This document shows positions 42,239-45,745 of a stretch of DNA of 64,000 bases, piece after piece. The translations under genes were made by a program, and so were the position numbers. The notes beneath the pieces are model-generated. The model saw nothing but the letters and a program-made list of their open reading frames with translations, made no database searches and was not told the origin of the DNA. The stretch's first letter is position 1; every line of letters starts with the position of its first letter. Source of the DNA: Marinobacter sp. es.042 (GTDB lineage Bacteria > Pseudomonadota > Gammaproteobacteria > Pseudomonadales > Oleiphilaceae); the NCBI RefSeq assembly GCF_900188315.1, contig NZ_LT897781.1, forward strand, positions 2,604,001 to 2,668,000. Direction: 5' to 3'.

Positions 42239-44203
42239 ATGAACCAACAGGGAACTCTGTCGCAGCAGGTAGAGGCTTATCACAACTGGAAAAAAGAGCT
42301 GATCCGCCAGATCGGCAGGTATCGGTTGTGGCTGCAGGACAACAATCTGTTCTCCGACGATGTCAGCACCCGCATACGCCACGGGCTGGAGCTGCTCATT
42401 GAGGATGAACTGACCATTGCGTTTGTCGGCGAATACTCCCGCGGTAAAACCGAACTGATCAACGCCCTGTTCTTCTCCGAGTATGGCCAGCGCATGCTGC
42501 CGTCCCAGGCGGGGCGCACGACCATGTGCCCCACCGAGCTGTTCTTCGATCGCAGCGCCAATGAAAACTACCTGCTCCTGCTCCCCATCGAGACCCGAAA
42601 CGGCGACCTGTCCCTGCAGCAATTGCGCAAGCAGCCGGAACGCTGGGTTAAACATGAACTGGATGAGCGCGACCCGGAAATCATGCGGGAGGTGCTGGCC
42701 GAAGTTGCGCGAGTTAAGAGCGTACCGCCGGATGAGGCGCGGAAGCTCGGCTTCGACGAAGATATGCTGGAGCATGACCGCAACAACCCCGGTAACGTTC
42801 TGGTGCCAGCCTGGCGGAATGCCCAGATCAGCATTCGTCACCCCCTGTTCGAGCGCGGCCTGCGGATCCTCGATACGCCGGGCCTGAATGCCCTTGGCTC
42901 CGAGCCGGAACTGACCATCAGCATGCTGCCCCGCGCCCATGCGGTGATCTTCGTGCTGAGTGCCGACACCGGTGTGACCGCCAGCGACATGACCATCTGG
43001 AAAGAGCACATCGACACCCAGCACGCCGATCATCGCGCCGGCCGCTTTGCCGTGCTGAACAAGATCGACGTGCTCTGGGATGACCTCCAGGGCGAGCGCC
43101 ACACCAACGAGGCGATTGAGCGGGTGCGCGGTTACACGGCCGACCACCTGGGCATGCGCCAGCACGATGTTATCCCGGTTTCTGCCAAGCAGGGGCTGGT
43201 CGCAAGGGTGAAGAAAGACAACGACCTGTTTGAGCGTTCCAATATCAATCAGCTTGAGCAGCTGATCATCCAGCGCATCCTCATGCACAAGGAACAGCTG
43301 ATCACCCAGAGTCTGATCAACGACCTGCTGGGCATGCTCCAGAACAGCCAGGCAGCCATGCAGTACCGCCTCGAATCCCTGGAGGAAGAACTCCAGGCGT
43401 GCGCGGGCGTTACCATGGACAAGGCAGCGCTGGGCCGCCTCGCAGAACGCGCCCAGAAAGACTACGACTTTTACTACAAGAAGCTGATAACCCTGCGCTC
43501 CAGCCGTCGCCTCATGGACTCCCAGGGCGACCTGCTGAAGAAGCTGGTGAGCGAAGACCGCTTCGAAGCCCATGCGGAACATGTACGTACCAGTATGTCG
43601 AAGAGCTGGACCACTGCCGGGATGAACCGCGCCATGGATCAGTTTTTCGAACTGCTTGAAAGCGACTTGACCAACCTTCTGAGCGAAGGGCACCTGGCCG
43701 AAAAAATGGTGGGCGCGATTTACCGTCGCTATAACGAAGACAACCGGGCCCGTCACCTTGAGCCCATCCCGCTGCGGGCCGGGCGCCATGTCATTGCCAT
43801 CCGCGAGTTGCGCAAGAAAGCGAGACGCTTCCGCATCAGTCCGAAGAATTTGCTCACCGAGCAGTCGGTTCTGGTTCGCCGTTTTTTCAATGTCATGGTG
43901 GGCGAAGCCCGCACCCTGCATGCCCGTGTACGCCAGGACGTTGAGCGCTGGCCATCGGAAGCCCTGCTACCGATCATGCAGTATTCCATGGAGCAGAAGC
44001 AGCTTCTGGAGCACCAGATCCGGCGCCTTCGCGATATGGTCCGCAACGACAAGGACAGCCGCACCGAGCGCCTGCGCCTGACCAACACCATTGCCGACCT
44101 GCGCAGGCAACTGGAACTGGCCGACGCGATGCAGCGCCAGATCCGCAAACCGGCCCCCACCCTGATCCAGCAAAAAGTGGTGAACATCTCCGGCGCCGTG
44201 TAG
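42239..44203 (+). CDS. Dynamin-family GTPase (bacterial dynamin-like protein)
   Basis: A 654-residue GTPase. G1 is GEYSRGKT (residues 64-71), the G2 region is near Thr94-95 (GRTTMCPTE), G3 is DTPG (212-215) and G4 is NKID (274-277). About 100 residues are inserted between G2 and G3. C-terminal regions near 365-400 and 590-640 predict coiled coil. Bacterial dynamins remodel membranes in stress, division or phage defence; the role here is unknown. No transmembrane segment is obvious. AAGGA lies seven bases upstream of the start. The gene sits between yggT and metX, interrupting an otherwise conserved order, and its stop codon was rebuilt by the element at 44203. Confidence 0.9.
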   Translation: MNQQGTLSQQVEAYHNWKKELIRQIGRYRLWLQDNNLFSDDVSTRIRHGLELLIEDELTIAFVGEYSRGKTELINALFFSEYGQRMLPSQAGRTTMCPTELFFDRSANENYLLLLPIETRNGDLSLQQLRKQPERWVKHELDERDPEIMREVLAEVARVKSVPPDEARKLGFDEDMLEHDRNNPGNVLVPAWRNAQISIRHPLFERGLRILDTPGLNALGSEPELTISMLPRAHAVIFVLSADTGVTASDMTIWKEHIDTQHADHRAGRFAVLNKIDVLWDDLQGERHTNEAIERVRGYTADHLGMRQHDVIPVSAKQGLVARVKKDNDLFERSNINQLEQLIIQRILMHKEQLITQSLINDLLGMLQNSQAAMQYRLESLEEELQACAGVTMDKAALGRLAERAQKDYDFYYKKLITLRSSRRLMDSQGDLLKKLVSEDRFEAHAEHVRTSMSKSWTTAGMNRAMDQFFELLESDLTNLLSEGHLAEKMVGAIYRRYNEDNRARHLEPIPLRAGRHVIAIRELRKKARRFRISPKNLLTEQSVLVRRFFNVMVGEARTLHARVRQDVERWPSEALLPIMQYSMEQKQLLEHQIRRLRDMVRNDKDSRTERLRLTNTIADLRRQLELADAMQRQIRKPAPTLIQQKVVNISGAV

Positions 44204-44466
44204 TGTCCCGTCTGGCTCATGCCTTAACCTACTGAGCTTCTGAAAAGCCGAAGGGCTAGGCGTACTGGTGAAGATTTGGTGGTTCCAAATCGAGACAGCA
44301 GAACGACGCCATTCGGCTTTTCAGATGCTCCCGAAGGGCTTGCCTCTGAGAACTCTGAATCTGCGTTGCCAGCCTTTGATGTGGAACCACCACATCTGCA
44401 GACTGGCGCCTAGCTCAGAATTCTCAGAGGCAAGCAGTAGATTAAGGCATGAGCCATACGGGACAC
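44203..44466. mobile_element. 264-bp palindromic MITE-like element with TA target duplication
   Basis: Terminal inverted repeats of 29 bp (44203-44231 and 44438-44466, two mismatches) begin GTGTCCCGT and end ACGGGACAC, flanked by TA on both sides (44201-44202 and 44467-44468). TA duplication is typical of IS630/Tc1-mariner transposition. Inside, two inverted half-elements each fold: CTGAAAAGCCGAA/TTCGGCTTTTCAG (44240-44252, 44312-44324) around GATTTGG-TGGTT-CCAAATC, and a 15-bp stem (44338-44352, 44421-44435) around GATGTGG-AACCA-CCACATC. The two loops, TGGTT and AACCA, are complementary. There is no transposase gene, so movement would need one supplied in trans. Confidence 0.8.
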
Positions 44467-44468
44467 TA

Positions 44469-44533
44469 AGCCCAGCAAGCGCGACCATTCAGGCGGTTGC
44501 AGCCATCACGCCCCGGCTTTAAACTGCTGGGCT
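44469..44533 (+). other. Long-range stem upstream of metX
   Basis: AGCCCAGCA (44469-44477) pairs with TGCTGGGCT (44525-44533), enclosing GCGACC/GGTTGC. It lies 64 bp before metX and starts directly after the MITE-like element. It does not match a known SAM or SAH riboswitch that I can recognise. It may be a leader structure or the remains of a terminator. Confidence 0.35.
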
Positions 44534-44596
44534 GGCGATGGCTTTGTCATTGCTTTTCCAGACACTTACGGATCGAACCAGGAACCATTCGCGCCG

Positions 44597-45745
44597 ATGC
44601 CTGATACCCTGCCTGCGGATTCTGTCGGGATTGTCTCCCCGCAGACCTATCATTTCGACGCTCCCATCGATCTGGCCTGCGGCCAGTCCCTGGAAAACTA
44701 TGACCTGGTGGTGGAAACCTACGGCACCCTGAATGCCGACGCCAGCAATGCCGTTCTTATCTGCCATGCCTTGAGCGGCCACCACCACGCTGCCGGCTAC
44801 CACTCTGCCGAGGATCGCAAACCCGGCTGGTGGGACAGCTGTATCGGCCCCGGGAAACCCATCGATACCGATCGTTTTTTCGTTGTCAGCCTGAACAATC
44901 TGGGCGGCTGCCACGGCAGCACCGGCCCCAACAGCATCAATCCCGAAACCGGAAAGTCCTTTGGCCCGGAGTTTCCGGTTATCACCGTCGGCGACTGGGT
45001 CAAGAGTCAGGCGCTGCTGGCAGATCGGCTCGGCATTCAATGCTGGGCCGCCGTTGTTGGCGGTTCCCTCGGCGGCATGCAGGCCCTGCAGTGGAGCCTG
45101 GACTACCCCGATCGCCTTCGGCATGCGGTGGTGATTGCGTCCACTCCGCGATTGACCGCCCAGAATATTGCCTTCAATGAAGTGGCACGCCAGGCAATAA
45201 CCTCTGATCGGGAGTTTCACGACGGGCGCTATTACGACTTTAATACGGTTCCCAGGCGTGGTCTTATGCTGGCGCGGATGGTTGGCCATATCACGTACCT
45301 GTCTGATGCCTCCATGGGCGAGAAATTTGGCCGCGAACTCCGTGACCAGGCTTATAAGTTTGGTTATGACGCGGAGTTCCAGGTCGAAAGCTACCTCCGC
45401 TATCAGGGCGAGCGCTTTTCCGAATCGTTTGACGCCAACACCTACCTGCTGATGACCCGTGCCCTGGACTACTTTGATCCGGCCTACGAATTTGGCGGCG
45501 ACCTCTCGAAAGCACTGGCAGCGGCCAGTTGCGAATACCTGGTGTTGTCATTCAGCACCGACTGGCGCTTCACGCCGGCCCGCTCGGAAGAAATGGTCAA
45601 TGCCATGATTGGCGCGCGCAGGAAGGTCAGCTACGCCGAGGTGGACGCACCCTGGGGACACGACGCGTTTCTGATTCCGACCCCGCGTTACACTGACATC
45701 TTTAACGCCTATATGGACCGGGTAGCACGGGAGGTCGGCGCATGA
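44597..45745 (+). CDS. metX: Homoserine O-acyltransferase MetX
   Basis: Activates homoserine for methionine synthesis. The 382-residue alpha/beta hydrolase has the nucleophile elbow GGSLGGMQ near residue 157, the Asp in STDWRFTP, and the His in WGHDAFL. Whether it uses acetyl-CoA or succinyl-CoA cannot be told; MetX proteins of Pseudomonas have been reported to use succinyl-CoA. It overlaps metW by 4 bp (ATGA), and the metX-metW-DUF4426-rdgB-hemW order matches Pseudomonas. Confidence 0.96.

Follow-up and report, generated by a model that had tools for sequence, protein, structure and literature searches.

A folded 264-bp IS630-type MITE of Marinobacter and its excess of insertions in stop codons

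The DNA analyzed here, called the window below, is the whole 64,000-nucleotide stretch of Marinobacter sp. es.042 between positions 2,604,001 and 2,668,000 of contig NZ_LT897781.1. On its plus strand, a 654-amino-acid open reading frame (42239..44203) encodes a dynamin-like GTPase, a family name taken from NCBIfam matches below the cut-off, and its downstream neighbor on the same strand is metX (44597..45745; NF047916, 681.9 bits against a cut-off of 560). Direct reading of the sequence between these genes revealed a TA at 44201..44202, 264 bp at 44203..44466, and a second TA at 44467..44468, the latter identified as the right copy of a duplicated dinucleotide by comparison with empty sites. 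Together with the first base of the 264 bp, a G, the left TA gives the dynamin-like gene its TAG stop codon; the product of this gene ends in V-N-I-S-G-A-V. The stretch before metX (44490-44596) is strongly conserved among the relatives read and includes TTGCAG and TAAACT spaced by 17 bases; it is perhaps the promoter or leader of metX, and our promoter scan did not flag it.

The 264 bp, recognized from their sequence, their inverted repeats and the copies in relatives, are nearly palindromic as a whole, so the orientation given to the element (plus strand throughout) is arbitrary. Its outer arms are 34 nt each, counting the TA, and 94% complementary, and two more inverted repeats lie inside. 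The predicted fold is a three-way junction in which an outer helix made from the terminal repeats carries two long arms, each tipped by a hairpin. The left terminal inverted repeat (44203..44233) and the right one, found by the inverted-repeat search (44436..44466), are the two strands of this outer helix, helix 1. Arm A (44234..44330; inverted repeat I3, helices 2-5) ends in an apical hairpin at 44273..44291 with the loop TGGTT, and arm B (44338..44435; inverted repeat I4, helices 7-9) ends in one at 44378..44396 with the loop AACCA, both read from the sequence and the fold prediction; judged by eye, the two loops are mutually complementary. Between the arms sits the short junction element CCCGAAG (44331..44337), marked by the conservation line and by helix 6. 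No transposase gene was found inside the 264 bp among the listed open reading frames of at least 80 amino acids, and the sole one of these that starts within the element (44268-44522) extends past its end. With terminal inverted repeats, a TA duplication, dispersed sites, the ends of an autonomous element and no transposase gene, it is a miniature inverted-repeat transposable element (MITE). The preliminary description had called it MITE-like, a call borne out by the paired ends, the TA duplication and the recurrence of these ends on 67 full-length copies, counting the window copy and the loci of other genomes. An Rfam search of the window gave just a tRNA, and the element gave one chance-level match (E 4.2, below the gathering score). 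Plasmids yielded no match to the window copy. A phage source was considered and rejected: the lone viral contig match consisted of one half-end in a phage-like open reading frame region with no second end, and we took it as chance.

Did the element enter an intact stop codon? It had been proposed that insertion turned a TAA stop into TAG and left the C-terminus of the dynamin-like protein unchanged. To read the corresponding site in relatives, we searched the window flanks against 124 genomes of the genus and read 30 loci from 30 genomes. The site is filled in three of them (G000, which is the window genome, G035 and G019) and empty in the other 27. Five empty loci (G070, G080, G108, G075 and G036) carry GTGTAAGC at the site and encode the same protein end, NISGAV, as the window; the other 22 have different stop contexts (TAA, TAG or TGA). 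Since these empty relatives read GTG-TAA and share the NISGAV end, whereas the filled site reads GTG-TAG, the original stop was TAA, and both the codon change and the unaltered C-terminus hold. The prediction of the empty site stood in part: empty loci exist, but the exact 13-mer foreseen is absent, the closest being two relatives that match 12 of its 13 bases. Of the genomes with an empty site, G001 is the nearest; precise excision was considered for it and dropped, as its allele reads GTC-TGA rather than GTG-TAA and is thus a different allele. The element and flanks of G035 match the M. maroccanus record L032. At the dynamin stop site of G019 (L082, 483-559) lies a 77-bp derivative whose interior corresponds, on the opposite strand, to bases 1-59 of the element; it looks like an inverted and internally deleted copy.

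The search for further copies that had been suggested for the window genome found only the one copy there. Elsewhere the family is widespread. Used as query, the window copy matched at least 56 of the 124 genus genomes (E 0.01), and L025, a copy of another subfamily, matched at least 63 of the 163 genomes of the family, spread over 5 of 16 genera (E 1e-6); at most six candidates were scored per genome, so copy numbers are lower bounds. Of the 67 full-length copies extracted, 60 are distinct in sequence. Three full-length copies near contig ends (two in G093, one in G102) were left out for want of flanks. Of the 62 copies whose flanks are distinct, 44 have kept a TA at either border and 18 lack it on one or both sides; given the empty loci as well, neither of the outcomes named beforehand as fatal to the earlier reading occurred. 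The original sites of these 44 were CTAG in 37 cases, TTAG in 3, GTAA in 2, CTAA in 1 and CTAC in 1, and CTAG accounts for just 16 of the 1482 TA sites in the window. The TA preference suggested earlier is therefore right as to the duplication and is refined to CTAG rather than any TA, with the window copy's own target, GTAA, as an exception. Among 43 sites we found no target consensus beyond the four bases, to which the position-wise information is confined, and there was no excess of local palindromes or folds at the targets.

It had been suggested to look in the window genome for an IS630 or mariner-type transposase with matching ends. Pfam DDE_3 was found in 28 of the 124 genus genomes and not in the window genome, where no IS630 element with matching ends was found; other genomes have one. 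Nine loci carry a 1180-1182-bp IS630 element with MITE-like ends, the best matches between the ends of the two being 20/20 and 27/29 bases, and none of the 637 matching stretches between IS630 element and MITE falls in the MITE interior. Both transposase proteins submitted to the NCBIfam IS630 equivalog scored far above its cut-off of 100 (302.1 and 300.4 bits), and all four submitted to Pfam contained DDE_3. The proposed IS630-type kinship thus rests on a transposase above the family cut-off and on ends common to both elements. Of the 14 IS copies listed, 13 lie between a left CTA and a right TAG, and in one the right border is TAA. These sequence matches make the 1181-bp IS630 element, with its 20-29-bp ends matching the MITE, the likely mobilizer. 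When 22 chosen genomes were searched with the IS630 model, matches at E 0.001 came from 14 and scores above the cut-off from 6; of these 6, only G022 is known to have the end-matching type. At E 0.001, the IS630 family went unmatched in MITE-rich genomes such as G123, G016, G013 and G117. Most of the MITE-rich genomes looked at thus yielded no matching IS; they may have lost the transposase or draw on one from elsewhere. A second IS630 type in Marinobacter, with a 361-amino-acid transposase and unrelated ends, occurs at six loci (L144, L146, L147, L149, L150 and L151).

We then asked how often the family sits in stop codons. Genes were called with a home-made codon-score caller that took its codon model from the window plus random regions; an earlier form recovered 20 of 21 training open reading frames with TAA or TAG stops. 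In the first set of sites, from which the orthologous duplicates L032, L012 and L022 were dropped, 26 of 59 were exact stop codons (19/37 for those of the CTAG type, compared with 18/175 in the background). In a replicate set of 31 copies, drawn largely from other genera, 14 were at a stop, as were 8 of the 14 CTAG-type sites (p=7.7e-5). Pooling yielded 93 flanked sites, of which 9 were removed as duplicates by flank similarity. The resulting 84 independent sites divide into 36 stop-codon sites, 15 that follow a stop by at most 100 bp, 1 inside a gene and 32 elsewhere. The stop-codon insertion described for the window copy is thus confirmed there and is no curiosity of one copy: the stop codon is the commonest single site class in the family. 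For comparison, CTAG sites with matched 500-base flanks were taken from 40 random 20-kb regions and the window, and L002, L012, L021, L022, L034 and L009 were dropped from this matched-flank comparison. These random regions replaced an earlier background drawn from the flanks of extracted loci (20/265; 18/265 with the window-trained model). The 170 background sites comprised 18 at a stop, 31 within 100 bp behind one, 102 elsewhere and 19 in genes, and the 49 CTAG-type insertion sites comprised 24, 4, 20 and 1, respectively. The stop share is thus 24/49 against 18/170 (p=2.9e-8), and the ratio of stops to nearby 3' sites is 24:4 against 18:31 (p=2.6e-5). The excess holds at gene-score thresholds of 10, 15, 25 and 40. 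Pfam searches on 10 of the 36 genes hit at the stop gave domain matches for 9, including RuvA, RuvC, BamE and alanine dehydrogenase. Two of the 84 sites are the shared stop of two convergent genes. The element faced the gene with its left end in 22 cases and with its right end in 16, so its orientation matters little.

The ends of the element offer a simple account of why proteins survive. Its first base is G and its last is C, so that a site C-TA-G becomes C-TAG...CTA-G on insertion; CTAG is rebuilt on both sides, and the rebuilt CTAG keeps a TAG stop on either strand. This rebuilding does not by itself explain why CTAGs at stop codons are favored over other noncoding CTAGs. The 24:4 ratio is hard to obtain by survival alone, since both types of site should be harmless. 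None of the 14 autonomous IS copies was at a stop codon, against 36 of the 84 MITE sites (p=0.0017), in a count where 9 IS copies have both flanks, 5 have one usable flank, orthologous loci were left unmerged and few genes were called nearby. This difference hints that the excess stems not from target choice but from the small folded element surviving or bringing a benefit. Most likely, the excess arises from the survival of harmless insertions, possibly with an added benefit of a hairpin behind the stop.

The fold is far more stable than expected for its composition. Folded as RNA, the element has an energy of -162.1 kcal/mol (z -16.5), and folded as DNA, -96.6 (z -17.3); in each case, none of 200 shuffles was as good. 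To determine whether the pairing is kept across the family, we placed the window's fold, with its 106 pairs, on 35 diverse copies picked from the 67. In these copies 94.9% of 3709 cells were paired, compared to 85.4% after shuffling, and 58 of the 106 pairs showed changes on both sides, compared to 29.4; none of 500 shuffles attained any of five covariation measures. Sliding the partners lowered pairing to 32-42%. In the 60 distinct copies, pairing is intact in 6052 of 6359 cells. Helix 1, with 29 pairs, has 98.4% of its cells paired, and the apical parts pair worse (80.4% in helix 4 and 88.2% in helix 9). Parsimony on the element tree with the 91 best-kept pairs gave 50 intact-to-intact changes against 26 broken pairs on internal branches and 44 against 86 on terminal branches (p=1.2e-5), a test that is indicative, as tree and counts share the same sequences. 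These counts fit selection on spreading lineages followed by decay of settled copies. Losses of pairing on the tree went to G-T in 32 cases and to A-C in 44, and without an excess of G-T over A-C the counts single out no one strand as RNA. The two dynamin-site copies of G000 and G035 differ at 7 positions with no compensated pair, and the window copy has broken pairs. Two other vertical pairs, with 8 differences and 1 difference, likewise had none.

A different pattern was observed upstream of phoB. Genomes G035 (L041, 501-764) and G023 (L012, 1501-1764) share an orthologous copy between a Pho-box-like promoter and a gene taken to be phoB, both named by eye. Its TA duplication has decayed and the flanks are 10-16% different, yet the fold is kept: the 23 differences between the copies include 4 compensated pairs, where 0.71 would be expected under random placement (P=0.0025), and ten further pairs changed on one side only. 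Of 29 phoB loci read, 27 are empty and just these two are filled. In G153, which belongs to another genus (L286), a copy 70-72% identical lies in the opposite orientation at the same place before phoB and is probably an independent insertion.

Taken together, these data make it very probable that the element is an IS630-type MITE mobilized in trans into CTAG, with its fold kept for mobility and its excess at stop codons brought about by survival. An IS630 transposase would cut the MITE out and paste it into the TA of CTAG, where the terminal G and C would restore CTAG and keep TAG stops on either strand; a TAA stop would become TAG, as at the window site. The folded body would be retained mainly for moving or staying movable, a view drawn from the pairing kept on internal branches and its decay in recent copies. 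Harmless insertions at stop codons would survive, the hairpin behind the stop being possibly of benefit, and the copy in the window genome would be an old, stranded one. Could the mobilizer be another transposase with similar ends rather than the 1181-bp IS630? The lack of any IS630 family match in G123, G016, G013 and G117 would allow this, but the first 20-29 bases, the CTAG target and the TA duplication are all common to IS630 and MITE, and we find such a mobilizer very improbable. It also seems quite unlikely that the transposition machinery itself prefers stop codons, for example through DNA states linked to translation or transcription at gene ends. The 24:4 ratio against CTAG sites 1-100 bp further on is what such a preference would produce; however, the target logo consists of CTAG only, with no palindrome or fold excess, and not one stop insertion is seen among the 14 IS copies, which share the ends and the target, possibly owing to atypical regions and weak gene calling.

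A use of the folded element to the host, as an RNA that protects or processes transcripts behind a stop or in a leader so that insertions are selected, is a possibility that we regard as unlikely. It would account for the exact excess at stop codons over nearby 3' sites and its absence in the 14 IS copies, for the phoB-leader copies that lost their TA and kept their fold with compensated changes, and for the similar copy that another genus carries at the same phoB place. Against it, pair losses show no G-U excess that would indicate one transcribed strand, the dynamin-site copies and the two other vertical pairs lack any compensated pair, broken pairs accumulate in recent copies, and a scan around the window copy revealed nothing resembling a terminator or a promoter. 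The paired changes might also be unselected, with hairpin arms correcting each other by template switching and covariation arising as a mutational by-product. Double changes at a fixed genomic site, the phoB leader, agree with this, and hairpin-mediated rearrangement could make the 77-bp derivative of G019 and palindromic remnants of 38-53 bp; but terminal branches carry 86 broken against 44 compensated pairs, and frequent arm correction should erase the single changes that are all we see in three vertical pairs, which renders this account doubtful. A more speculative extension, to be held only tentatively, is that the G/C ends and the CTAG target, by which entry into a stop codon spares the protein on either strand, amount to an element built to be silent, whose covarying three-armed body would be a portable 3' or 5' transcript module, tolerated or used by the host and repeatedly recruited. 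The convergent genes that share one CTAG, at 2 of 84 sites, and a phoB leader recruited twice independently are the examples that suggest it.

As an IS630-type MITE, the element is ordinary in kind; two properties of its family are uncommon, the elaborate covarying fold and the stop-codon habit. The CTAG preference of IS630 is reportedly named in the title of Tenzen and Ohtsubo 1991, and we know of no match to IS630 ends for Correia/NEMIS, ERIC, CIR and other bacterial MITE-like repeats. These resemble our element in TA termini and folded transcripts, with effects on mRNA reported for some (PMC2229807). IS630-type MITEs with TA targets, the CTAG preference of IS630 and a 3'-end bias of MITEs are known from the literature (PMC3189936, PMC2170065, PMC3049150, PMC2229807, PMC4853749, PMC6382973 and PMC5896051). 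RUP of Streptococcus pneumoniae, for which mobilization by IS630-Spn1 is proposed, is likewise small, without transposase, with IS630-like terminal repeats, a TA target and a tight fold in which the terminal repeats pair (PMC2229807 and PMC3049150). At 264 bp against 107 bp the MITE falls outside RUP by size, and it is set apart by its description, with a three-way junction of two long arms, a CTAG target and a stop-codon excess, whereas RUP is reported to favor the gaps where convergent genes meet (PMC3049150). The TA duplication is shared by IS630 of Shigella sonnei and ISY100, and cut-and-paste transposition of ISY100 was shown in vitro (PMC2170065); both differ from the MITE in carrying a transposase gene. 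MITEPsy1 of Pseudomonas syringae also inserts at CTAG or YTAA and has similar sequences in Marinobacter aquaeolei, but it is 100 bp long, with 18-bp ends of another sequence, a 4-bp duplication and a likely IS5-type origin (PMC3189936). Among open-licence PMC papers, neither an exact excess at stop codons nor a MITE folded as a three-way junction turned up, and the one paper obtained for IS630, MITEs and Marinobacter concerns other elements. The family provides an uncomplicated sequence rule for a transposon to enter a gene's stop codon with the protein unchanged, and its data set can separate stop-codon insertion from ordinary 3' insertion. Its covarying three-way junction makes it testable whether a MITE fold serves mobility, RNA function or arm-to-arm correction, and the phoB leader copies are a candidate for domestication.

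Several unusual forms of the family were also observed. In L048 (G016), a 300-bp relative (199-498) adjoins a 264-bp copy (501-764) with one TA in common, as though a CTAG restored at the edge of one element had become the next target. A more diverged 186-bp variant with both ends and no flanking TA occurs in four genomes (L083, L085, L086 and L087). Tiny palindromic remnants consist of little beyond the two ends (L301-L306, 53 bp; L307-L308, 38 bp; L076 and L138, 47 bp); they are multiple in G013, G036 and G046, some retain CTA/TAG flanks, and they are possibly mobile themselves. Lastly, the single-contig chromosome of G069 (C1) was opened within a copy of the element, the last 37 and first 227 bases of which lie at its two ends (L078 and L079).
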